A DNA stretch of 64,000 bases, from contig JACZJL010000033.1 in the NCBI GenBank assembly GCA_014860585.1, positions 1-64,000 of the forward strand, written 5' to 3'. A program made the translations under genes and the position numbers. This DNA comes from Bacteroidales bacterium (lineage in GTDB: Bacteria; Bacteroidota; Bacteroidia; Bacteroidales; 4484-276). The stretch's first letter is position 1. Every line of letters starts with the position of its first letter. Shown here piece after piece: positions 47,510 through 61,957 of this stretch. Below the pieces are notes generated by a model. That model saw only the letters and a list, made by a program, of their open reading frames with translations, was not told the DNA's origin and made no database searches.

Positions 47510-48826
47510 TTACATCTCCGGCGGAAGGTCGCCGGCGAGTTGAAGGAGGTTGATTTCGAGGGTTTTTATGTCGAGGCGGACGTTGAGCAGTCGCGCTTCG
47601 GTGGTCATGAAGTTGCGCTGGGCTTCGCGAAATTCGATACCGGAGAGGTCGCCCAGCCGGTAGCGTTCTGTCGCAATATCAAGGTTTTCGCTGGCAGCTT
47701 CCACATTTTGCAACTCCATGGCCAGCAGGCGAAGTTTGTTCAGGTAGCTGTTGTAGTTAAGCGTCAGTTCGGCCTGCAACTCGCTGACGAGCGACTCGGT
47801 GCGGATGCGGCTTGCATCGAGGAGGATGGTGGCATTGTTGCGTTCGCGGCGGGTGTTGAGGCCATCGAGGATTTTCAGGTTAGCGTTTAGGCCATAAGTG
47901 AGACCGGTTGAGCGGTTGGATTGTAAAAAACCCGATTCGGAGGACTGGTTGATGTAATTATACCCCATGTTGAACCCCAGCGTGGGCGACTGTCTGCCAC
48001 GAATTTCACGGAGAGTAAGTTGTGCCAGCAGTTCGTCCTGAAGGCTTAACTGAAGGGAAGTATTTTGCCTGAGCATTTTCTCTTCCAGCGTTTGTTTAAC
48101 CAGCACTTTATTCACTTCAAACGAATCGGGTACTTCAAAGGCCACATCGGCCGGGCGGGCCAGCAACTGGTTGAGGTTAACCCTGGCGCGGTCAATCCGG
48201 TCTGCAATCCCCATCAGGAGCGCACTGTCGGCATTCAGGTCAACTTCTGCCTGCAAAACCTCCAGCCTGGAACCTGCGCCAATGGCAAGCATATCGTTAG
48301 CCAGCTTCACCCTTTCGAGATCAACGGAAATGGTTTTTTCGATCACCTGAAGTTGTTGCTTCATGTGGATCAATTCGAAAAAGTTCACCAAAATATTGTT
48401 GATGGTTGCCTCGACCGTAAGCAGTACCAGGAGTTCACTTTTCTGCTCGAATTGTTTTACGCGGTCATAATTTACAAACATCTGCATACCGTCAAACAAG
48501 GTCCAGTTCAATTGGGCGCCGGCATTAAAGGCATCTGATTTTGCACCGGTCAAATCGTTCACCTGGCCGCTGAGATACTCCTGTCTTGTATTTAACACAC
48601 TGAAATTCTGCACTGCATCTATGTCGAGCACCGGTAAGAAATTGGCTATTCCCATTTTGACATTGTTTCCGGCAATCAGGGCATCCTGCTTTACCAGCCT
48701 GATGGAGAAGTTGTTTTCGAGCCCTTTGCGAATGGCATCTTCGGCTGTAAGCAACTCCTGTGCTCCCAGTCCCTGGGTCAGCAGCGCGATCAGCAGCAAA
48801 AGGTTTATGATTTTTATATTTTTCAT
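47510..48826 (-). CDS. TolC-family outer membrane efflux protein
   Basis: 438 residues from an ATG with signal peptide (MKNIKIINLLLLIALLTQGLGAQ). Two OEP repeats with long heptad helices (e.g. LDEKMLRQNTSLQLSLQDELL and a C-terminal ERYRLGDLSGIEFREAQ), the usual TolC signature. It forms the trimeric outer-membrane channel for the RND pump coded directly upstream; ATG overlaps the pump gene stop in an ATGA junction. It is slightly short for TolC but typical for this phylum. Confidence 0.92.
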   Translation of the reverse strand: MKNIKIINLLLLIALLTQGLGAQELLTAEDAIRKGLENNFSIRLVKQDALIAGNNVKMGIANFLPVLDIDAVQNFSVLNTRQEYLSGQVNDLTGAKSDAFNAGAQLNWTLFDGMQMFVNYDRVKQFEQKSELLVLLTVEATINNILVNFFELIHMKQQLQVIEKTISVDLERVKLANDMLAIGAGSRLEVLQAEVDLNADSALLMGIADRIDRARVNLNQLLARPADVAFEVPDSFEVNKVLVKQTLEEKMLRQNTSLQLSLQDELLAQLTLREIRGRQSPTLGFNMGYNYINQSSESGFLQSNRSTGLTYGLNANLKILDGLNTRRERNNATILLDASRIRTESLVSELQAELTLNYNSYLNKLRLLAMELQNVEAASENLDIATERYRLGDLSGIEFREAQRNFMTTEARLLNVRLDIKTLEINLLQLAGDLPPEM

Positions 48827-51800
48827 ACGTTAAAATCCTCCTTTTCAGGTTGTAGCTCCTGAACGGTCATTAAATCCGAAGCATTGGAGACATCTTTCGA
48901 TTTTTCCGAAATATAAGCGTACATGGCCGGAACGACATATAAAGTGAGCAGGGTGGCAAAGGTGAGTCCCCCGATAATCGCAGTACCCATCGAAACACGA
49001 CTTGCCGATCCGGCGCCTAATGCGAGAGCAATGGGTACAGCTCCAAGGATCGTTGAAAGGCTTGTCATCAGGATAGGCCGGAAGCGTGCAACGGATGCAT
49101 TGTGAATGGCCTCCATTTTTTGAAGCCCGGCAGCTTTTCGCTGGTTGGCAAACTCAACAATCAGAATCCCGTTCTTGGTTACCAGCCCGATAAGCATGAT
49201 GATACCGATCTGACTGAAGATGTTCAGGGTTTTTTCAAAATACCACAGTGTGAGGACGGCTCCGGCCAAAGCCAGCGGTACAGTAAACATGATGACCAGC
49301 GGATCGCGGAAGCTTTCAAACTGGGCAGAAAGTACCAGGTATATCAGGATGAGTGCAAGCACAAAGGCAAACACGAGACTGCTGGCGCTCTCTTCAAAAT
49401 CTTTGGAGGCGCCGGCCAGCGAAGTCGAGAAAGTCTCGTCAAGAAGGTTGGAGGCAATACGGTTCATCTCATCAATGCCATCGCCAATTGTTTTGCCGGG
49501 GGCAGGGTTTGCCGAAATCGTGGCCGATACAAAACGGTTGTAACGGTATAACTGTGGCGGGTTTACGGTTTCCTTGAGTGTGATCAGGTTACTAAGCATA
49601 ACCATTTCCCCGCGGTTGTTTTTAACATACAGATTTTCCAGGTCAACCGGTGCATCGCGAAATCCGCGTTCAAGCTGCCCGATCACTTCGTATTGCTTAC
49701 CGTCCATCACAAAGTAGCCAAAACGTGTTCCGCTCATGGCAAATTGAATGGTCTGCGCAATATCCATAGCAGAAATTCCCAGCATTCGTGCCTTCTCCCG
49801 GTTGATGGTGATCTGCAGTTCCGGCTTGTTGAACTTCAGGTTGAGATCGGCAAATTGGAAAACCTCACTTTGCGCCACTTCAGTCATAAAACCCGGAAGC
49901 ACTTCCTTGAGTTTATCCAGGTTAGCGGTCTGGATGACATATTGAACGGGCATTCCGCCTCGCTGCGTGCCAATGGACTGCTCCTGTGTTACGAAAGTAC
50001 GCACTTCCGAAAGACTTTTTAGCTTCGCCGAAAGGTGATCGGCGATCTCCTGCTGGCTACGTTCACGCTGGTCAGGATCAATCAACCGGATACGTGAATT
50101 GACGGAGTTGGTAGCGCTCGACCCGCCATACCCTGGTGAAGTGACAGTAATAAGGGAGTATATTTCCGGAACTTCCGCCTGCACCAGGTCAATGTATTGC
50201 CTTATATAGGCTTCCATAAATTCATAAGTACTGCCCTCGGGCGCCGTTCCAAAAACATTCATACCTGAACGGTCCTCCAATGGCGCCAGTTCAGAAGGCA
50301 GTTCACGTCCAACGCCTAATATAAGTAACACCGAAACGCCGGTTATTACAAAGGCCAGCCATTTTTTTCCTAGAAACGAAGCAAGACTATCTGAATATAG
50401 CTGATTCAACTTTAAGAAAAATGGCTCCGTACTGGTGTAAAGCCAGTTATGTTTTTCCCTTTTTTTCAATATCCGGGTCGAAAGCATGGGGGTGAGGGTA
50501 AGTGCGACAAAAGAGGAAATAATAACAGCGCCGGCCAGCACAATCCCGAATTCGCGAAACAACCTTCCTGTAATTCCCTCCAGGAAAATGACCGGCAAAA
50601 ATACCGTGGCCAGGGCCACCGTAGTGGCTATAACAGCAAAGAAGATTTCGGCTGAACCCTGCATCCCGGCTTGCAAAGGAGTCATTCCTTTTTCGATCTT
50701 TGAGTAAATATTTTCGATCACCACAATGGCATCATCCACCACCAACCCGATTGCCAGCACCAGTCCAAGCAGCGTAAGCACGTTGATAGAAAAACCGGCA
50801 GCATACATAATGAAAAAGGAACCGAGGAGCGAAATTGGGATGACCACCACGGGAATAATAGTTGTTCTCCAGTCGCGGAGAAAGAAAAAAATCACCAGCA
50901 CGACCAGCACAAAGGCAAGATAAATGGTTTGTTCCACCTCAGTTATCGAATCGCGGATATAGTCCGTTTGGTCGAAACCGATGCCCAGTTCGATATCGTC
51001 GGGCAGGTCTTTTTGGATTTTCTCGAGGCGGCGGTAAAATTCATCGGCAATTTCGATATGGTTTGACCCAGGCAACGGGGTGATGGCATTTCCTACCATT
51101 GGGACACCGTCGCGGCGCAGTAAAGTACGTTCGTTCAATGGCGCCAGTTCGGCAAAGCCTACGTCCTTGAAGCGGACGACACCGGTTGCCCCTTCAGCAA
51201 CAATGAGGTTGTTGAAATCTTCCGGGGTTTCCAGCCGGCTCAGCGTTCTCAGGGTCAGTTCAATGGTGTTTCCTTCGATGGAGCCTGCAGGCAGCTCAAG
51301 GTTTTCGCGGAGGAGTGCATTGCGCACATCCAGCGGGCTCAGTCTGAAAGCGGCGAGCCGTCCCGGGTCCATTCGTAAACGCATGGAGTAGCGTTTTGCA
51401 CCCCAAACCGCAATTGAACTCACCCCCGGAATGGTCTGCAGACTTTCCTTAAATGTACGCTCGGCAATTTCGGTCAGCTCAAGCAGGTTGCGCTGCTCGC
51501 TGCGGATGTTCAGGAAAATAATCGGTGATGCGTCAGCATCAGCTTTTGAAACAATCGGCGGGTCGGCATCGGGAGGCAACAGGCGCATGCTTCGTGAAAC
51601 ACGGTCGCGCACATCATTGGCTGCTGCCTCCATGTCAATGCTCAGGTCAAACTCGACGGTGATGGTGCTTCTTCCGTCGCGACTCACGGAGGTCAGTGTC
51701 CTGATTCCTTCGATACCATTGATGGACTCTTCGAGTGGTTCGGTGATCTGCGACTCAATCACATCGGCGTTGGCGCCCGGATAATTTGCACTTACGGTGA

Positions 51801-51933
51801 TGATGGGCGGATCAACACTGGGGTACTCGCGCACGCCAAGTGAAGTCATCCCGATAACTCCGAAAAGGACGATCATGATTGACATTACGGTTGCCAAAAC
51901 CGGCCTGGTAATACTTATTGAAGACAGGCTCAT
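48823..51933 (-). CDS. RND multidrug efflux permease (HAE1 family)
   Basis: 1036 residues from an ATG. The AcrB/MexB plan of 12 helices with two large periplasmic loops. Proton-relay residues are seen: the Asp pair in GLVVDDAIVV (helix 4) and Lys in IGLVTKNGILIVE (helix 10). The N-terminus (MSLSSISITRPVLATVMSIM) is of the Bacteroidota form. It pumps drugs, detergents or lipids out by the proton gradient; the range of substrates cannot be read off. Overlaps the genes on both sides by 4 bases. Confidence 0.95.
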   Translation of the reverse strand: MSLSSISITRPVLATVMSIMIVLFGVIGMTSLGVREYPSVDPPIITVSANYPGANADVIESQITEPLEESINGIEGIRTLTSVSRDGRSTITVEFDLSIDMEAAANDVRDRVSRSMRLLPPDADPPIVSKADADASPIIFLNIRSEQRNLLELTEIAERTFKESLQTIPGVSSIAVWGAKRYSMRLRMDPGRLAAFRLSPLDVRNALLRENLELPAGSIEGNTIELTLRTLSRLETPEDFNNLIVAEGATGVVRFKDVGFAELAPLNERTLLRRDGVPMVGNAITPLPGSNHIEIADEFYRRLEKIQKDLPDDIELGIGFDQTDYIRDSITEVEQTIYLAFVLVVLVIFFFLRDWRTTIIPVVVIPISLLGSFFIMYAAGFSINVLTLLGLVLAIGLVVDDAIVVIENIYSKIEKGMTPLQAGMQGSAEIFFAVIATTVALATVFLPVIFLEGITGRLFREFGIVLAGAVIISSFVALTLTPMLSTRILKKREKHNWLYTSTEPFFLKLNQLYSDSLASFLGKKWLAFVITGVSVLLILGVGRELPSELAPLEDRSGMNVFGTAPEGSTYEFMEAYIRQYIDLVQAEVPEIYSLITVTSPGYGGSSATNSVNSRIRLIDPDQRERSQQEIADHLSAKLKSLSEVRTFVTQEQSIGTQRGGMPVQYVIQTANLDKLKEVLPGFMTEVAQSEVFQFADLNLKFNKPELQITINREKARMLGISAMDIAQTIQFAMSGTRFGYFVMDGKQYEVIGQLERGFRDAPVDLENLYVKNNRGEMVMLSNLITLKETVNPPQLYRYNRFVSATISANPAPGKTIGDGIDEMNRIASNLLDETFSTSLAGASKDFEESASSLVFAFVLALILIYLVLSAQFESFRDPLVIMFTVPLALAGAVLTLWYFEKTLNIFSQIGIIMLIGLVTKNGILIVEFANQRKAAGLQKMEAIHNASVARFRPILMTSLSTILGAVPIALALGAGSASRVSMGTAIIGGLTFATLLTLYVVPAMYAYISEKSKDVSNASDLMTVQELQPEKEDFNV

Positions 51934-53009
51934 ATTGGCAAAATTTCTTTAATACTAACCGGAAGCCCTGAGCGCATCTGTAATATACCGGTGGTGATCA
52001 CCGTATCGCCTGTATTCAGTCCGCTGATAATCTGCACGTGTGACTCGGTGCGCAGCCCGGTGGTAACGATTACAGGTTGAACAACTCCATTTTTATACAA
52101 AAACACTTTGCTTGACCCCATCTCGGGCACCAGCGCCTGGGTTGGGATTTGCAATGCATTGTCAAGACTTTGAAGCACTACCTCCACGCGGGCATACGAT
52201 CCGGGGATGATGTGTCCGTTTGTGTTGGCATATAAGGCCCTTACCAGAATAGAACGTGTTCGTTGGTCAACAACCGGCTCGATGGCCGAAATGGTTGCTT
52301 CGAAAGTTCCAGGCTGGTTATCCACCGAAAACATCACCTTTCCCCCTTTCTTCAGATATCCGGCAAAACGCTCAGGAATACTGAAATCGATTTTTACCGG
52401 TTCCGTTTTGGCCAGCCTCACGATTTGCATTCCGGGAGAAATGTAAGCCCCTTCGCTGATGTGCCTCAATCCCAGAATTCCACTAAACGGCGCTCTGATA
52501 ATGGTCTTCTCCAGTTGTGCCTGAAGCAGCGCCTCCTCCGCCTTTAATGTGCTGAGTTCGGTATAAACCTGGTCGTAAGTCTGCTGGCTGATTCCCTGCT
52601 TTTCGAGCAGGCTGCGCTGGCGTTGTTCGCTCTCTTCGGCAAGGCGAACCTGGTGTTTGTTGCGCTCAATCTGTGCCAGCAGGTCGGCATTGTTTACAGT
52701 GATTAACAAATCGCCTTTGGTCACTTTTGCCCCCTCGGCAAAATGGATGGCGGTCACACGACCAGAGGTCTCAGCTGAGATTTCAACCTGCTCGTCTGGC
52801 AATACGGTTCCGGCCGAAACAATTTTATCAGACATCAGCGTTGGCTTAATGATAACGGCTACCACCGGAAGGATGGCTGACGAGCGGCCGGAGACCAGTT
52901 CCGGACGTGATGCCGGGGTACTGAAGTATCCGGTACGATTGGCAATTAGAAATAAAATGACAAGCAGTGTGAGGAGAATCCCGAGAATTCGTTTGTAGTA
53001 TTTCTTCAT
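51930..53009 (-). CDS. RND efflux periplasmic adaptor (membrane fusion protein)
   Basis: 359 residues from an ATG. One N-terminal membrane anchor (about 8-24), then the lipoyl half (VTAIHFAEGAKVTKGDLL), a helical hairpin (KHQVRLAEESEQRQRSLLEKQGIS), the second lipoyl half (TIIRAPFSGILGLRHISEG) and beta-barrel domains. It bridges pump and TolC-like channel. First gene of the three-gene operon; a -7 box lies 22 bases before the ATG. No regulator gene of the TetR or MarR type is adjacent. Confidence 0.93.
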   Translation of the reverse strand: MKKYYKRILGILLTLLVILFLIANRTGYFSTPASRPELVSGRSSAILPVVAVIIKPTLMSDKIVSAGTVLPDEQVEISAETSGRVTAIHFAEGAKVTKGDLLITVNNADLLAQIERNKHQVRLAEESEQRQRSLLEKQGISQQTYDQVYTELSTLKAEEALLQAQLEKTIIRAPFSGILGLRHISEGAYISPGMQIVRLAKTEPVKIDFSIPERFAGYLKKGGKVMFSVDNQPGTFEATISAIEPVVDQRTRSILVRALYANTNGHIIPGSYARVEVVLQSLDNALQIPTQALVPEMGSSKVFLYKNGVVQPVIVTTGLRTESHVQIISGLNTGDTVITTGILQMRSGLPVSIKEILPI

Positions 53010-54106: not shown

Positions 54107-54179
54107 CCTCATTCTGAAACGTAAAACCTTTTTCACTGCCCGATTGTTCTTTCAGTTGGTCATGCTTAATCATAAACTT

Positions 54180-55280
54180 ATGAAATCATATAAAATTCTG
54201 ATTGGTATTCTGCTGGCATTGGTTACCCTGCCCTTTTGCGGCAAGAATGAAGGAATAATCGAAAAACCGCCACACATTGATCCTTCAGCAAAAAAGAAAA
54301 TCATCCTGATGATCGGCGACGGGATGGGGCTGAGCCAGATCACAGCCGCTTCGGTGCACCTTGGGCGTCCACTCAATCTGGAGCAATGCAAATACATTGG
54401 GTTGCAAAAAGTATTTGCTTCCGACCAACTGGTTCCTTCCTCCGCTTCTTCGATCACTGCCATTGCCAGTGGGGTCAAAACAAAATATGATTATGTGGGG
54501 CTGGATGCTGACGGTAAAAAAGCGGTGAATATTGCCGAGATGCTTTCGAACAAAGGGTTTGCAACGGGGATAGTAACCACCTCATTTGTTTCAGACAATA
54601 CACCGGCCGGATTTTATGGTCACAATCCCGACCGCTACGACCGCGAAGGCATTGCACTTGACCTGCTAACCTCAGGACTGGATGTGGTGATCGGTGGTGG
54701 CAGGGATCATTTCAACCAGCGGTCGGACGGTCTGAACCTGCTCGATTCGCTGCAGTCCGCGGATTTCCTTGTTTTTGATAACCTGCAGGCTGCCACAGTC
54801 GTTGAAAAGGGGAAAGTGGCGTGCTTTACCGATACGTTCAGACCACCAAAGATTTCGGAAGGGCGCGGTGATATGTTAAGCGATGCCACGCTCCTTGCAC
54901 TCCGGCTGCTTGATGACAATGAAAATGGATTTTTCCTGATGGTGGAGGGTGGCCAGATTGACTGGGCCTGTCACTTCAACGACCAAGAATGGCTGATGGA
55001 TGAAATGCTGGATTTTGATAAGGTGGTTGGTGAAGTCCTCGATTATGCAGCAAAAGATGGCAATACGCTGGTCATCATTACCGGCGACCACGAAACAGGC
55101 GGCTTTGCGCTTACAGGCGGCAATGAGTCGTCCGGTGAAGTGCAGACAGGATTTGTCATTGATGATCATACAGCTACGATGGTTCCTGTGTTTGCTTTTG
55201 GTCCCGGAGCCGGCAATTATACTGGAGTTTACAAAAACACAGCGTTTTTTGAGAAGTTCAGGGAGTTTTTTGGAATTTAA
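54180..55280 (+). CDS. Alkaline phosphatase lipoprotein (PhoA family)
   Basis: 366 residues from the ATG at 54180. Lipoprotein signal with lipobox LPFC (Cys20). Metal and active-site motifs of the family: MIGDGMG (D47), nucleophile region PSSASSITAIASGVKT with Ser88, R in NPDRYDREGIA, MVEGGQIDWACH, and DHETGG. The residue before the nucleophile, Asp101 in E. coli, is Ser here (S87). It should release phosphate from monoesters in the periplasm or at the surface. It is shorter than E. coli PhoA by about 100 residues, lacking the crown-like insert, which is normal for this branch. No phosphate-uptake gene is close. Confidence 0.9.
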   Translation: MKSYKILIGILLALVTLPFCGKNEGIIEKPPHIDPSAKKKIILMIGDGMGLSQITAASVHLGRPLNLEQCKYIGLQKVFASDQLVPSSASSITAIASGVKTKYDYVGLDADGKKAVNIAEMLSNKGFATGIVTTSFVSDNTPAGFYGHNPDRYDREGIALDLLTSGLDVVIGGGRDHFNQRSDGLNLLDSLQSADFLVFDNLQAATVVEKGKVACFTDTFRPPKISEGRGDMLSDATLLALRLLDDNENGFFLMVEGGQIDWACHFNDQEWLMDEMLDFDKVVGEVLDYAAKDGNTLVIITGDHETGGFALTGGNESSGEVQTGFVIDDHTATMVPVFAFGPGAGNYTGVYKNTAFFEKFREFFGI

Positions 55281-55438: not shown

Positions 55439-58400
55439 ATGTTCATCAAAGTTTTTAAATTGGATTCAGTGAAATATCGGGGCTGTTGTATTTTCTGGCC
55501 GCTGATGCTGTTATTCATTCTAATGATGTCCTGGCCGGCGACTCAGGTAAAGTGCCAGGTGGTGTTCAACGAAGTAAGTTCAGCCAACTTTTCAGGGATT
55601 ACCGATGAGGATGGCGATTTTGAAGACTGGATTGAATTGTATAACACCGGCAGCCAACCGGTCAACCTGAAAGGCTGGGTGTTGACGGATAATCCCGACC
55701 TTCCGGGTAAATGGAAATTTCCTGAGATCATCATTGAGCCGCAGGGTTTCCTCATTGTCTTTGCTTCGGACAAGAACAGGAAAGTATTGATTGACCATTT
55801 CGAAACGGCAGTCTACAACACCGACTCATTCCGGTATGTAAATCCCACAAGCGAGCCTGACCGGTTTTGGCGTGATCCGGAATTTGTTGATACCACATGG
55901 CAGGTCTCACCGGGTGGATTTGGACATGGAACAGGGTTTTACCATACCAAGGTTTACGATACGTTGATCTCTGTTTTTTTACGGAAAAAATTCACGGTTT
56001 CAAATCCGGAAGATATTGTGAATGCCCAGTTTCACCTGGATTACGATGATGGATTTATTGCTTTTTTGAACGGTTTTGAGATCTTCAGAAAGAACCTGAA
56101 ACCTGACGGTAAACTGCCGGAATTCAACCAGGCGGCATGGCGGCAGCACCCGTCGCAATGGGTGAATGGCGAGCCTGCCGAACTTTTTACCATTAACCGC
56201 GCCGACATCCATCGGTTGCTGGCAGAAGGCGAAAACGTGCTCGCTATCCAACTGCACAACCACTGGCTGGATGAGGAGATGAGTATCAATCCGTTCCTTT
56301 CGTTCGGGATCCAATCTCAATCCATCTATTTCAGGGAACCCCCACCATGGTTTTACCATGATCCTTTGTATCTGCATACAAACTTTAAACTTGAAGCTTT
56401 GGGCGAGCCTCTTTTGCTGTTTGATGCGCAGGGCAACCTGCGTGACCAGCTGATCATTCCTGAATTGCCTTACAACGCGAGTTATGGAAGGGTAGGGGAT
56501 GGTAACCCGGACTTTTGCTATTTTGCCGATCCAAGCCCAAATGCAACAAATACAACCCAGCAGTGCTTTTCCGGAACAGTGCCTGGGTTAACAATGTTTT
56601 TCCCCGTTGCCGGCCTCTATGACATTACTCCCAGGGATTCGATGCGGATGAATATTTTTGCCTTGTCCCCTGATTTGGAAATTCGATATACTTTGGACGG
56701 AAGCGAGCCCAATTCAGGTTCAGCACTTTACACCAATGAAATTTATATAACAGGCACAACCGTTGTAAAAGCGAGACTCTTCAAGGAAGGTTATCTGCCC
56801 GGCGATATAGCGGTCAGCAGTTACATCATCAACAAATCAACCAATCTGCCCGTGTTTTCCGTAAGTACAAATCCTGAACTGTTGTGGGACTATGAAACAG
56901 GTATTTACGTTACCGGCCCTGATGCTGATCCCAATTTCCCCTACTTTGGTGCAAACTTCTGGCGTGATATTGAAATTCCGGCTTCCATCGAATATTTTGG
57001 AACTGGAACTGATCGCATTTTTCAGCAGGAGGCCGGGGTGAAAATTCATGGCGGATGGAGCCGCGCATTTGCACAAAAAAGTCTCCGGCTCACTAACCGC
57101 AGTAGTTTCGGGACATCTGCCTTCAACCATCCGTTTTTTAAGGATAAGAACATCCTCGACTATAAAAAATTGATCCTGCGCAATGGCGGAAACGATTTTC
57201 AGTCGGCCATGATGCGCGATGGATTGATCCATAAAATGGTTCAAAAAGTCACCAATATGGCTGTTCAGGATTATCAGCCTTCGGTGGTTTACCTGAATGG
57301 GGAATATTGGGGCATCCATAATCTGAGAGAAAAAATTGATGAAGATTTTCTTTTTGAGAATTTTGCCCTGGACAGCGACGAGGTTGATTTGCTTGAAAAA
57401 AACAACCTGATCATCGAAGGCGACAATACTGATTTCATCGCGTTGTATGATTTTATCATTTCGAACGACCTTGGTGATGAGAATAACTTTAATGTGGTGA
57501 CCGAACAACTGGAGATCACCAACGTGATTGATTATTTTGTGGTTGAGTTGTTTATCATCAACACCGACTGGCCCCAGAACAACGTAAAATACTGGAAGCA
57601 GGGTGATGGAAAATGGCAATATATCTTTTTGGATGCTGACAATGCCATGGATTTTAACACCAACCTGCAACATTACACCAAAAATTCTTACACCCGTGTT
57701 ATGGAGGATTCTGTAGTTCAGCACTCGGTCATCTTTCAACGGCTGTTGGAAAATAGCAACTTCCGGCGGGATTTCATCAACCGCTATGCTGACCTGATGA
57801 ATACGATTTTCCTGCCCGAAAACTCTATTGCCCTGATTGAGAACATCAGGGACAGCATTATTGGCGAAATGGCTGCACACAAAGCAAAGTGGGGCGGTTC
57901 GGTTTCGTTCTGGAACAATTTTCATGTGAATACCAAATTGAAGGGCTTCTTCCAGAACAGGCCTGAATACGCCAGGTTGCATACCATTGAGGAATTTGGA
58001 CTTGACACGGTATTCACATTGACTCTGAATACTGCTAATGGCATGAGCTCCAGGATTCGACTCAACACCATTATCCCGGACAATTATCCCTGGAATGGAA
58101 TTTATTTTTACGACAATCCTGTGCAGGTGGAAGCGCTTCCTGCACCCGGCATGGAGTTCAGCCACTGGCAATCTTCCCAGTTTCCTGTTTTGACTGATTC
58201 CCTTCAACGGATGTGGTGGCACCTGTCGGCAAATGATACGCTGACAGCTCATTTCATTGGTGTACCTGATACCTTGAAACTTGTTTTCACCGAAATCAAT
58301 TACAAATCCCATGAAGAGATGGATGCCGGAGATTGGGTGGAGTTATTCAACCCAAATGAAACCGAAGTAGATATCTCAGGCTGGATATTCAAAGGTGACA

Positions 58401-61400
58401 GCGATTTCAGTAGTTTTATATTTCCTGAAAATACGTTAATTCAGCCCGGTTCTTACCTTGTTTTGGCGCAGGATACTGCAAGGTTTTCAGCGATAAACAA
58501 GGATGTTGCCAATGTGACCGGCTCGTTTAATTTTGGATTAAAAACCTGGTCGTCACAGGTTCGGTTGTTCGATCGGCATGAGAACCTGATCGTGTCGATG
58601 CAGTATTTCGATCAGTCGCCATGGCCGGGAAATATTGCAGGCACAGGCAGAACGATCGAGCTGATCTCCCCTGAGTTGGACATCAATGACCCTCAAAGTT
58701 GGAAAGCAGGTTGCCCCGGAGGGTCGCCAGGCAGCGAACCATACGATTGCATGGAAGATTTCAACGTCTGTTTTACCGAATTCAACTATAAATCCTACTC
58801 CGGATTCGACACAAAAGATTGGGTTGAAATTTACAATTACGACACCGTGCCGGTTGACCTAGGATTTTGGGTTTTTAGAGATAATGACGGCGCTCATGAG
58901 TTTGTGCTTCCCTATGGTTTACAGCTTGATCCGGGCAGTTTTCTTGTACTTTGTGAAGACACGGCAGCATTCAGGTTGTTTAATCCCGGAGTTGAACCTG
59001 TCATCGGCAATTTTGATTTCGGGCTTTCCTCTGATAGCGATAAACTCAGGCTTTACGATCCATGGGAAAACATGATTTCACAGTTGGAATATTCATCCGG
59101 TGCTCCCTGGCCGCCAGATGTGTCAGGAACCGGACGCACTGCTGAAGTGATTGACTACGGAGGGGATATCAGCAACGGAGCCAACTGGAGGAGTGGATGC
59201 CTCGGAGGATCGCCGGGAATGTTCCCGCTGCCATGCCATGACACGGCGGCAATCGTGGTTACTGAAATCAATTACGCTGCTTCTGATGAATTCGACTCAG
59301 GCGACTGGATCGAGATTTTTAACCATGATACGGTGCCGGTTGTGCTCAATGGCTGGAGATTTCGCGATGACAATCCAGGCCACAATTACAGTTTTCCTGA
59401 CGGCCTCATACTGATGCCCGAGGAATTTATTGTGTTGGTTGAGGATTCTGTCAGGTTCAAGTTAGTGCATGATACCGTTACACGTTTTACAGGAGAATTT
59501 GATTTCGGGCTTTCTGCCACTTCGGATGAAGTGCATTTATATGACATTTTCGGTCAGGAAATTGCGTTCATAGGCTATCAATCCACATTACCATGGCCGG
59601 CGAATATTCCCGGTACCGGACGAACCATTGAACTGATTGATCCGGAAATGCCAATGAATAGCCCCCAGCATTGGAAAGCCGGTTGCCCCGGAGGGTCGCC
59701 TGCCAGTTCGCCCTTTGAGTGTCCCGGAAATTACAAACTGGCATTCACTGAGTTTAATTACAATTCCTATCCGGGCTTTGACACGAAAGATTGGGTGGAA
59801 ATCCATAACTATGATTCAGTGCCTGTTGATTTAAGTTCATGGAGATTTGAGGACAATGACCCGAATAACCGTTTTACTCTTTCGCCGGGAACACATATAG
59901 CGCCGGGAGGATTTCTTGTGCTGTGCGGGGACACCGCAGCATTCCGGTCATTCAATCCCGGAGTTACATCCATCATGGGTAACTTTGATTTTGGACTCTC
60001 CTCCGAAAATGATCATTTGCGGTTATACGACCCCTGGGAGGAACTGGTGTTGTTGGTTGAATATTCTTCCGGTCAACCCTGGCCTCAGCATATTTCAGGC
60101 ACCGGACGCACTGCCGAAGTGATTGATTTTACCGGCGAACTCAACAATGGCTTGAACTGGCATGACGGTTGCCTGGGTGGTTCGCCGGGTATGTTCCCGC
60201 TTCCCTGCCACGATACGGCAAGGATTGTTGTCACAGAGATCTGTTACAATTCATTGGATGAAAATGACACCGGGGATTGGCTCGAAATTTATAATAATAA
60301 TTCAGTCACTGTTTCCCTTAATGGCTGGAAACTTAAAAACTCAGCCGGGGATCAGGTGTTCCACTTCCCTGATGAAATTACCCTGCAACCCGGGATGTAT
60401 TTCCTGGTTGTACAGGATTCTCTGAGATTTATGGCAGCGCACGATACGATTTACGAATTTGTCGGGTCTTTCGGATTTGATTTGGATTGGCAGGCAGATG
60501 AAATTCATTTGTTTGACATCTTTGACCAGGAGATCGTCAATATCAGCTATCAGGCAGGCAGCCCCTGGCCTTTCAATTTTTCTTCCAGTAAAAGAACCAT
60601 CGAATTGATTGATCCGGATCAAAATGGGTCGGATCCTGTTAACTGGAAAATCGGCTGCCGCGGCGGGTCGCCCGGAACTGCCCCTGTCAGCTGCGATGAA
60701 AACTATAAAATTGCTTTGACAGAATTCAATTACAAATCATTTCCAAAATTTGATACAAAAGACTGGGTCGAAATTTTTAACTACGACACCGTCAATATTG
60801 ACCTGAGTTATTGGAAATTTGTCAACGAAAGCGGGGATCATGCTTTTGTATTCCCCGAGGGGTTTCAACTCGTTGTCGGGGAGTTTTTATTAATCTGTAG
60901 CGATACGACTGAATTCAGTAAGTTCAATCCCGAGTTGGATAACATTACCGGAAATTTCGAATTTGACCTTTCAGAGTATGAAGATGCGCTACAGCTATCA
61001 GACCCCTGGGAAAATCTTGTTGTACTGGTCGATTATTCAAATGAACCGCCCTGGCCACAAGCGATTTCAGGGACAGGCCGCACTGCCGAACTGATTGATT
61101 TTGCTGCAAATTCCAACGATCCCTCAAATTGGAAAGCCGGATGCCTGAAGGGATCGCCGGGTGGTTTTCCGGTTCAACCTTGTAACGACACAACCACCAT
61201 TGTTGTCAGTGAGATTAACTACAGCATTTCTGCGGACTTACCTACCGGCTCGTGGTTCGAACTTTTCAACCCTAACGATTTTGTGGTCGAACTGGATGGC
61301 TGGACGTTTCAAAATGCTGATGAGAATCCCTTTTTCCAATTCCCAGATGGCATACAATTGGTTCCGGATGCATATCTTGTTGTGGTTGAGGATTCACTGA

Positions 61401-61957
61401 AATTTCTGTCGGTGCATGATACCATTCCGGGATTTGTTGGCGGGTATGGCATAGGACTCTCGGAAATTGCAGACGAATTCAGGTTGTTCGACTTTTTTGA
61501 TCAGGAAATTATTTATATCAGTTACCAGTCAACCGAACCCTGGCCGGTGAACACCCCCGGCAGCGGTCGGACCATCGAACTGATTGATTACGGCGAAGCG
61601 CTGAACAATCCGCTGAACTGGAAAATCGGTTGCCGGGGCGGCTCCCCGGGCATGGCTTACATAGACTGCGATGATTATTCCATTCCCGAAAACCTGCTGG
61701 AGAAACTCTCTGTAAAAGTGTATCCAAATCCTTTTACAAGCGATTTTACCATCGAACTGACTTCAGATGAAAGCCTGGCGATTGAGATCAAACTCAAAAA
61801 TAACATGGGATATGAAATCAGCAGTGTTTTTGATGGTGTGATAAATGCCGGAAAGAAAGCCATCGGATTTCATTCCTCCAACCTCGGAAAGGGGGTCTAT
61901 TTCCTCCAAATCAATTCAGGCGGTTATTCCCTTTATTACAAGCTTATTGCGTATTAA
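55439..61957 (+). CDS. Giant CotH-like, lamin-tail-repeat protein with T9SS sorting domain
   Basis: 2172 residues from the ATG at 55439, with a signal anchor (FWPLMLLFILMMSWPATQVKCQ). Order: one lamin-tail domain (about 40-130); an unassigned middle (about 130-380); a chitobiase-like FN3_7 segment (IRYTLDGSEPNSG, about 420); a CotH-kinase-like domain (about 500-800: GVKIHGGWSRAFAQKS, LRNGGNDFQ, YWGIHNLREKID, IFLDADNAMDFN); then seven lamin-tail domains of about 163 residues starting near 945, 1107, 1270, 1431, 1594, 1755 and 1919; and a type A sorting domain (about 2085-2172, VKVYPNPFTSDFTIEL). The seven repeats alternate between two types, and each ends in a GCxGGSPG ... C motif. Lamin-tail domains may bind DNA, glycans or cell surfaces. 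Secreted or surface-bound. Confidence 0.87.
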   Translation: MFIKVFKLDSVKYRGCCIFWPLMLLFILMMSWPATQVKCQVVFNEVSSANFSGITDEDGDFEDWIELYNTGSQPVNLKGWVLTDNPDLPGKWKFPEIIIEPQGFLIVFASDKNRKVLIDHFETAVYNTDSFRYVNPTSEPDRFWRDPEFVDTTWQVSPGGFGHGTGFYHTKVYDTLISVFLRKKFTVSNPEDIVNAQFHLDYDDGFIAFLNGFEIFRKNLKPDGKLPEFNQAAWRQHPSQWVNGEPAELFTINRADIHRLLAEGENVLAIQLHNHWLDEEMSINPFLSFGIQSQSIYFREPPPWFYHDPLYLHTNFKLEALGEPLLLFDAQGNLRDQLIIPELPYNASYGRVGDGNPDFCYFADPSPNATNTTQQCFSGTVPGLTMFFPVAGLYDITPRDSMRMNIFALSPDLEIRYTLDGSEPNSGSALYTNEIYITGTTVVKARLFKEGYLPGDIAVSSYIINKSTNLPVFSVSTNPELLWDYETGIYVTGPDADPNFPYFGANFWRDIEIPASIEYFGTGTDRIFQQEAGVKIHGGWSRAFAQKSLRLTNRSSFGTSAFNHPFFKDKNILDYKKLILRNGGNDFQSAMMRDGLIHKMVQKVTNMAVQDYQPSVVYLNGEYWGIHNLREKIDEDFLFENFALDSDEVDLLEKNNLIIEGDNTDFIALYDFIISNDLGDENNFNVVTEQLEITNVIDYFVVELFIINTDWPQNNVKYWKQGDGKWQYIFLDADNAMDFNTNLQHYTKNSYTRVMEDSVVQHSVIFQRLLENSNFRRDFINRYADLMNTIFLPENSIALIENIRDSIIGEMAAHKAKWGGSVSFWNNFHVNTKLKGFFQNRPEYARLHTIEEFGLDTVFTLTLNTANGMSSRIRLNTIIPDNYPWNGIYFYDNPVQVEALPAPGMEFSHWQSSQFPVLTDSLQRMWWHLSANDTLTAHFIGVPDTLKLVFTEINYKSHEEMDAGDWVELFNPNETEVDISGWIFKGDSDFSSFIFPENTLIQPGSYLVLAQDTARFSAINKDVANVTGSFNFGLKTWSSQVRLFDRHENLIVSMQYFDQSPWPGNIAGTGRTIELISPELDINDPQSWKAGCPGGSPGSEPYDCMEDFNVCFTEFNYKSYSGFDTKDWVEIYNYDTVPVDLGFWVFRDNDGAHEFVLPYGLQLDPGSFLVLCEDTAAFRLFNPGVEPVIGNFDFGLSSDSDKLRLYDPWENMISQLEYSSGAPWPPDVSGTGRTAEVIDYGGDISNGANWRSGCLGGSPGMFPLPCHDTAAIVVTEINYAASDEFDSGDWIEIFNHDTVPVVLNGWRFRDDNPGHNYSFPDGLILMPEEFIVLVEDSVRFKLVHDTVTRFTGEFDFGLSATSDEVHLYDIFGQEIAFIGYQSTLPWPANIPGTGRTIELIDPEMPMNSPQHWKAGCPGGSPASSPFECPGNYKLAFTEFNYNSYPGFDTKDWVEIHNYDSVPVDLSSWRFEDNDPNNRFTLSPGTHIAPGGFLVLCGDTAAFRSFNPGVTSIMGNFDFGLSSENDHLRLYDPWEELVLLVEYSSGQPWPQHISGTGRTAEVIDFTGELNNGLNWHDGCLGGSPGMFPLPCHDTARIVVTEICYNSLDENDTGDWLEIYNNNSVTVSLNGWKLKNSAGDQVFHFPDEITLQPGMYFLVVQDSLRFMAAHDTIYEFVGSFGFDLDWQADEIHLFDIFDQEIVNISYQAGSPWPFNFSSSKRTIELIDPDQNGSDPVNWKIGCRGGSPGTAPVSCDENYKIALTEFNYKSFPKFDTKDWVEIFNYDTVNIDLSYWKFVNESGDHAFVFPEGFQLVVGEFLLICSDTTEFSKFNPELDNITGNFEFDLSEYEDALQLSDPWENLVVLVDYSNEPPWPQAISGTGRTAELIDFAANSNDPSNWKAGCLKGSPGGFPVQPCNDTTTIVVSEINYSISADLPTGSWFELFNPNDFVVELDGWTFQNADENPFFQFPDGIQLVPDAYLVVVEDSLKFLSVHDTIPGFVGGYGIGLSEIADEFRLFDFFDQEIIYISYQSTEPWPVNTPGSGRTIELIDYGEALNNPLNWKIGCRGGSPGMAYIDCDDYSIPENLLEKLSVKVYPNPFTSDFTIELTSDESLAIEIKLKNNMGYEISSVFDGVINAGKKAIGFHSSNLGKGVYFLQINSGGYSLYYKLIAY

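Follow-up and report, generated by a model that had tools for sequence, protein, structure and literature searches.

The 64,000-nucleotide stretch of DNA analysed here (the window; contig JACZJL010000033.1 of assembly GCA_014860585.1, Bacteroidales bacterium) contains a gene in which lamin-tail domains (LTDs) of two kinds follow each other in a long tandem array, and it raises the question of how such an alternating array came into being and what kind of protein carries it. The initial annotation had placed seven LTDs at 58270-61690 in the strict order A-B-A-B-A-B-A; the seven units are present (58271-61669 as measured), and an eighth, N-terminal LTD, a CotH kinase domain and a sorting tail of the type IX secretion system (T9SS) were absent from that description. 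The 2181-amino-acid (aa) protein is composed, in this order, of the N-terminal LTD, a Fn3_assoc/CHB_HEX_C domain, the CotH domain, the seven LTDs and the T9SS tail. Pfam found the LTD eight times in this protein (357.5 bits over the whole), and the units taken alone yielded 36.2-61.3 bits with PF00932, all eight being above the cut-off of 34.3. The account that we favour, at a probability staying slightly below even, is that of a CotH-type kinase presumably exported by the T9SS, with an LTD array of the form F-(B-A)x3 that would have arisen from an F-B-A ancestor (F denoting a founder-like domain) and with a neighbouring phosphatase.

Alternation within the lamin-tail array

The seven units start at intervals of 162, 162, 162, 162, 162 and 163 aa, and the pair of about 326 residues proposed in the initial annotation has a measured period of 324-325 aa. 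The opening motifs were recovered as originally written, namely (T/S)EI...G(D/S)W in units 1, 3, 5 and 7 and TEFNY(K/N)S...FDTKDWVE in units 2, 4 and 6. Identity amounts to 53-68% among B units and 38-52% among A units, compared with 31-43% between A and B. A tree of the window's units together with eight domains from seven related proteins, the check that had been suggested for the A/B split, grouped units {2,4,6} with a support of 100/99 and units {3,5,7} with 99/98. The opposite outcome, in which neighbours are closest, was rejected for each of the four neighbour pairs, out of six, that were put to the test, since forcing them as sisters cost 36-50 log units (p of the approximately unbiased test, p-AU, at most 1.3e-4). 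Moreover, 20 columns of the alignment have a residue that is invariant in B and missing from {3,5,7}, and 12 columns show the reverse pattern.

The strict order is thereby upheld by tree and identity for units 2 to 7, but not for domain 1 as a strict type A domain. The grouping {1,3,5,7} received a support of 49/38, and the grouping {1,2,4,6} was not rejected (p 0.29); the within-minus-between identity is 12.1 when domain 1 is counted with B versus 12.2 when it is counted with A. At the positions that separate the two types, domain 1 carries 5 of the 20 B states and 4 of the 12 A states, and the position states together with the weak tree support ruled it out as a plain type A domain. Three relatives with a single LTD, placed in the same alignment, have 6-7 B states and 2-5 A states and thus resemble domain 1 closely. 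The last third of D1 is 77% alike to D3 over columns 121-150, its middle is nearer to D2 at the protein level (53% over columns 61-90), and block trees agree weakly with this. From these sequence comparisons, domain 1 appears to be founder-like (F) and not a clear type A domain. The notion of a duplicated two-domain pair consequently stands with respect to a copied module, which the tree supports, but not with respect to an A-B pair from the start, as a B-A module following a founder-like domain 1 fits better. The alternation as first described is mostly right, and the array is better described as F-(BA)x3.

The B sub-tree ((2,4),6) and the A sub-tree (3,(5,7)) have conflicting topologies. A clean series of whole-pair duplications was ruled out on these grounds, and the conflict implies that copies also exchanged sequence or that breakpoints fell within domains. 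Even D2 and D4, the closest pair of units, agree at no more than 24 of the 52 four-fold sites that could be compared. Since synonymous sites are far diverged between copies, a recent duplication introduced during assembly is unlikely and, judged by this divergence, the LTD copies are old.

Origin of the array among related CotH-LTD proteins

Relatives were collected from a sample of 393 genomes of the order, including that of the window, 55 of which had a match at an E-value of 1e-30 or better, and from a sample of 395 genomes of the phylum, 48 of which had one at 1e-20; some genomes are common to both samples. With these thresholds and at most nine candidates scored per genome, divergent extra copies were missed, as was the third copy of genome G208, and the LTDs of the relatives were located with a profile built from the window's own units. 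Seven adjacent C-terminal LTDs are present in the window, three in five relatives (G229, G208, G792, G795 and G371, the latter extending over two contigs) and two in nine (G124, G003, G129, G205, G236, G398, G015, G133 and G033, the second domain of G033 being cut by a contig end), and most other CotH-LTD proteins that were fetched contain one. More than three adjacent LTDs were not found outside the window among the matches listed at these thresholds, and seven is the largest number only among the adjacent 162-aa arrays seen here. Open reading frames (ORFs) of other relatives contain several LTDs about 250 aa or more apart (for example G126:C83, G085:C108, G005:C260 and G003:C38, the latter being locus L085) and appear to represent a different kind of multi-LTD protein.

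The CotH-LTD proteins of the related genomes have the same architecture as the window's protein, with cores that are 28-46% identical over 843-889 columns (19 proteins), whereas they contain at most three adjacent C-terminal LTDs among those fetched and the matches listed. A tree computed from the cores (residues 55-950) of 24 proteins, core trees comprising ORFs of more than 1100 aa from chosen loci, placed the window's protein in a clade with those of G124, G208, G792, G795, G229 and G371 with a support of 100/99. The sister group consists of six proteins with one C-terminal LTD each, and a tree with fewer rows agrees. This series of one, two, three and seven C-terminal copies on related cores allows the growth of an LTD array, and the role of bacterial LTDs, to be addressed.

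When the three copies of the three-LTD relatives were assigned to F, B and A of the window, the order F-B-A was the best of the six assignments in all five proteins, which belong to one clade and two families, and copy 1 is nearest to F by raw identity in five of five. These matches in order argue against an origin of all seven copies in the window's protein alone, by which one LTD would have given rise to A and B, the pair would then have been copied, and like-numbered copies elsewhere would be independent. Such a history of independent expansions obtained a p-AU of 0.073, and the window's seven units as one clade a p of 0.023 under LG+C20 (31 rows picked from a larger set), compared with a p-AU of 0.413 when F, B and A each form a clade. 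We nevertheless regard the origin within the window's protein as a serious possibility, somewhat under an even chance. The seven units form one group together with the G124 pair in another tree (97/90), and in other proteins, too, LTD pairs originated on more than one occasion, the copies of G124 being sisters and those of G003, G129, G205, G236 and G398 sharing another pair. Several further observations weigh against an F-B-A ancestor. The five three-LTD proteins fall into two sister families (99/98 in the core tree) and hence represent one to two cases, not five; the assignment for G229 is narrow, with the runner-up B-F-A at 5.093 versus 5.134; and in terms of raw identity only two of five proteins have B as the nearest match of copy 2 (one tie, two nearest to F) and four of five have A as that of copy 3. 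The best LTD tree, obtained without constraints (p-AU 0.767), itself lacks the F, B and A clades, the seven units as one clade are not rejected under LG+G4 (p 0.223), and a smaller LTD tree places them together (67/83). Holding the copies of one three-LTD family together was not rejected either (0.082 and 0.264). Stretches below 60 aa were left out of one of the LTD trees, and domains below 80 bits, N-terminal domains and the truncated copy C2 of L073 out of another.

With respect to these data, an F-B-A ancestor followed by B-A amplification is the likeliest history, as judged from the sequences, and is not proven. The ancestral protein would already have possessed three LTDs that differed from each other, arranged as F-B-A, the lineage of the window would have amplified the B-A pair, and later exchange between copies may have made the last third of D1 similar to that of D3. 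The alternation would then be inherited and not selected domain by domain. As an observation in its own right, an unlike-LTD pair occurs at five loci in five genomes (L071, L072, L089, L090 and L092), in which the first copies cluster with each other, as do the second copies, and the cores fall into two groups.

Structure of the lamin-tail domains

AlphaFold2 models of D3-D4-D5 (A-B-A) and D4-D5 (B-A) reached a mean predicted local distance difference test score of 87.4 and 86.8, respectively, with predicted template modelling scores (pTM) of 0.53 and 0.61. In each of the modelled D3, D4 and D5 domains the immunoglobulin (Ig) fold of lamins was recognized, with Z scores of 10.2-10.5 to lamin tails. 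This fold is common to the tails of lamin A/C and B1 (3gef, 3umn, 1ifr and 3jt0; root mean square deviation, rmsd, 2.5-2.7 over 101-109 residues), which belong to animal nuclear lamins and are 11-15% identical to the window's units in those rows. The best VIA-align match to D4 was BT_1938 of Bacteroides thetaiotaomicron (4q1z, DUF4876; Z 12.0, rmsd 2.9 over 154 residues), which covers almost the whole unit; it is a 389-residue chain named for DUF4876 and is likened to D4 by structure alone. A search of PDB sequences with the LTD profile gave nothing useful. Foldseek matches to the adhesin SiiE, mastigoneme, S-layer and cytokine-receptor-like proteins were judged to be common multi-Ig shapes with a low TM-score or a high rmsd.

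The suggestion that A and B face each other is unsupported by these models, which combine good domains with low pTM, and no fixed A/B interface or rigid pair can be claimed from them. Facing domains are also unneeded where the alternation is explained by history. The lack of a confident domain-domain interface fits with a passive spacer, one that serves through its length alone, with drift as the source of the A/B differences and no functional meaning in the alternation, as do the variation from one to seven C-terminal copies among relatives with alignable cores and the fact that copying of any two-domain module yields an alternation. We consider this reading plausible, if not quite an even bet; against it, the positions fixed in one type and absent from the other (20 in B, 12 in {3,5,7}) have persisted despite largely diverged four-fold sites, which implies that the types were long kept apart. 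Under the account favoured here, a long acidic LTD stalk would space the kinase from the envelope and offer repeated binding surfaces. A Cys pair closes each of the seven units and is also present in 30 of 48 other domain rows (37 of 55 including the window's); it may act as a disulfide, lending stiffness to each joint.

The CotH kinase domain

A profile of CotH relatives matches the solved CotH structure 5jd9 with an E-value of 4.9e-7, and D719, N724 and D741 align with positions 224, 229 and 247 of the 5jd9 chain, the D, N and D of the solved protein. According to excerpts of a published study, D228 and D251 are the inactivating positions of Bacillus subtilis CotH (PMC7821199); D719 and D741 were equated with them on the basis of equal spacing, positions 224 and 247 of 5jd9 likewise being 23 apart. 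The spore-coat kinase (5jd9/5jda) is of the same family as the window's protein and has both inactivating-Asp positions in common with it, insofar as these are described in the excerpts, whereas it is a spore-coat enzyme with a chain of 359 residues and the window's protein is a multidomain protein with a T9SS tail. A search of PDB sequences with a single CotH sequence gave nothing useful.

An inactive kinase domain in a protein that acts as an adhesin appears unlikely. In its favour, the similarity to the solved CotH spans profile positions 123-361 of 371 and not the start of the domain, the protein is of the multi-Ig type with a T9SS sorting tail, and the top Foldseek match by E-value was the adhesin SiiE (1.8e-4). 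The three residues are kept, however, and none of the 18 rows aligned (17 of them distinct, as the window's sequence is present twice) departs from them. If active, the kinase would phosphorylate extracellular or envelope proteins.

Nine CotH and 27 LTD matches were found in the window's genome, and the contig of the window carries a further CotH-LTD gene some 23 kb downstream (C33:84710-86383). A scan of genome contigs yielded two distant loci and nothing useful.

The upstream alkaline phosphatase gene

The gene immediately upstream of the CotH-LTD gene, in the same orientation and separated from its TTG start by 131 bp, encodes an alkaline phosphatase. A tblastn search of 42 fetched loci detected a phosphatase in only six (L069, L091, L093, L094, L106 and L107, from G124, G208, G792, G795, G229 and G371), in each case on the same strand and directly upstream of CotH, and in none of the remaining loci. 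Together with the window, these six make up the whole of the window's clade, which spans four families (codes f1, f114, f4 and f99). The 15 further CotH loci for which 1200 nt or more of upstream DNA were available, two-LTD proteins among them, all lacked a phosphatase there; CotH was recognized by a short regular expression, so that some CotH genes are uncounted. The linkage of a phosphatase to a CotH-LTD gene is new here, and its presence in all seven clade members makes extracellular protein phosphorylation testable in these bacteria. Neither the F-(BA)x3 array nor the CotH-phosphatase link was found in the literature among the matches listed, as judged by title.

Phosphatases of this kind are common, with matches in 221 of 393 genomes of the order. 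Three observations weigh against the favoured account: among the best 30 phosphatase loci of these 221 genomes only those of the window and of G124 had a CotH-LTD gene in the flank; the phosphatases encoded next to CotH are not monophyletic in the best tree (p-AU 0.087 for monophyly); and the residue before the presumed nucleophile is Ser in the window versus Asp, Glu or Gly in the six relatives, as aligned by eye. A Ser at the presumed nucleophile position was aligned by eye in each of these seven proteins, which were compared with one another. A lipobox-like start was recognized by eye in five of the six relatives, the match in G229 starting too late to tell, and the window's phosphatase shows a degenerate lipobox, likewise by eye.

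The architecture of the protein together with the phosphatase linkage makes a T9SS-exported kinase on an LTD stalk the simplest account, in which the phosphatase encoded just upstream would counter the phosphorylation or recover phosphate. A more elaborate version, in which a lipoprotein-like phosphatase and a T9SS-displayed kinase form an operon-encoded phosphorylation pair and two-faced B/A modules bind a repetitive surface or matrix partner, switched by the phosphorylation of that partner, seems rather improbable to us.

Predicted export and coordinates of the features

The sorting tail was identified by TIGR04183 (40 bits, cut-off 23) and PF18962 (39.8 bits, cut-off 27), and the N-terminus resembles a signal peptide by eye. 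The genome (4.7 Mb in 194 contigs) encodes SprA, the T9SS core component that was searched for (2584.5 bits, cut-off 200), and T9SS tails were matched in 150 of 150 scored proteins from 302 candidates, which would point to the Bacteroidota. The tail would place the protein on or outside the cell. A literature search for CotH together with T9SS matched a single paper, fungal according to its title, and among the matches listed in further searches none named CotH in the title or was fitting by title. The positions of the features are compiled in Table 1.

Table 1. Coordinates of the CotH-LTD gene, its encoded domains and the adjacent phosphatase gene in the window
Feature	Position	Strand	Basis or remark
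Whole gene, 2181 aa	55412..61957	+	TTG start; in-frame ATG at 55439 as alternative start
N-terminal LTD (eighth LTD)	55550..55804	+	Pfam, 48.7 bits, above cut-off
Fn3_assoc / CHB_HEX_C_1 domain, residues 416-471	56657..56824	+	Pfam
CotH kinase domain (PF08757), residues 543-853	57038..57970	+	Pfam, 136.9 bits, cut-off 23.8
LTD unit D1, founder-like (F)	58271..58756	+	Front part resembling relatives with one LTD; final third close to type A
LTD unit D2, type B	58757..59242	+	Motif, identity, tree
LTD unit D3, type A	59243..59728	+	Motif, identity, tree, structure match
LTD unit D4, type B	59729..60214	+	Motif, identity, tree, structure match
LTD unit D5, type A	60215..60700	+	Motif, identity, tree, structure match
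LTD unit D6, type B	60701..61189	+	Motif, identity, tree
LTD unit D7, type A	61190..61669	+	Motif, identity, tree
T9SS type A C-terminal sorting domain, residues 2103-2179	61718..61948	+	TIGR04183 and PF18962
Alkaline phosphatase gene (PF00245)	54144..55280	+	Pfam, 206.7 bits, cut-off 24.4

Comparison with known LTD proteins and genomic surroundings

Tandem LTDs and LTD-CotH proteins are already known kinds of proteins. The discussion of the ExeM study, as excerpted, mentions multiple tandem repeats of LTDs in bacterial proteins with reference to Mans 2004 (PMC6085458), and Cthe_0239 of Clostridium thermocellum is given in an excerpted table as a cellulosomal protein of the composition LTD-LTD-Fn3-CotH (PMC6083626). 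By this tabulated description, Cthe_0239 resembles the window's protein in that LTDs are joined to CotH and an Fn3 module within a single chain, but has two LTDs and a cellulosomal context, whereas the eight LTDs of the window's protein are divided into one at the N-terminus and seven on the C-terminal side, followed by a T9SS tail. Literature searches for the LTD with Bacteroidetes or with tandem arrangements gave nothing useful among the matches listed.

The earlier view that lamin-tail function in bacteria is unknown is broadly fair, with the exception of one deletion study, in which, according to its excerpts, removal of the LTD slowed DNA degradation by ExeM in vitro and left clearing on plates nearly normal (PMC6085458). 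Binding of extracellular DNA by the array, which that observation would favour and which excerpts of another study propose for the LTDs of secreted halophile DNases (PMC4486849), is very improbable here and was set aside on the negative charge of the units, all seven being acidic (isoelectric point 4.05-4.42, net charge -14 to -19), and Pfam found no nuclease domain in the protein.

Additionally, a resistance-nodulation-division efflux set, comprising an outer membrane factor, an AcrB-type protein and a membrane fusion protein, is encoded at 47510-53009 on the opposite (-) strand, and a short tandem repeat of CCCCATG with 5.4 copies is located at 2858-2895.

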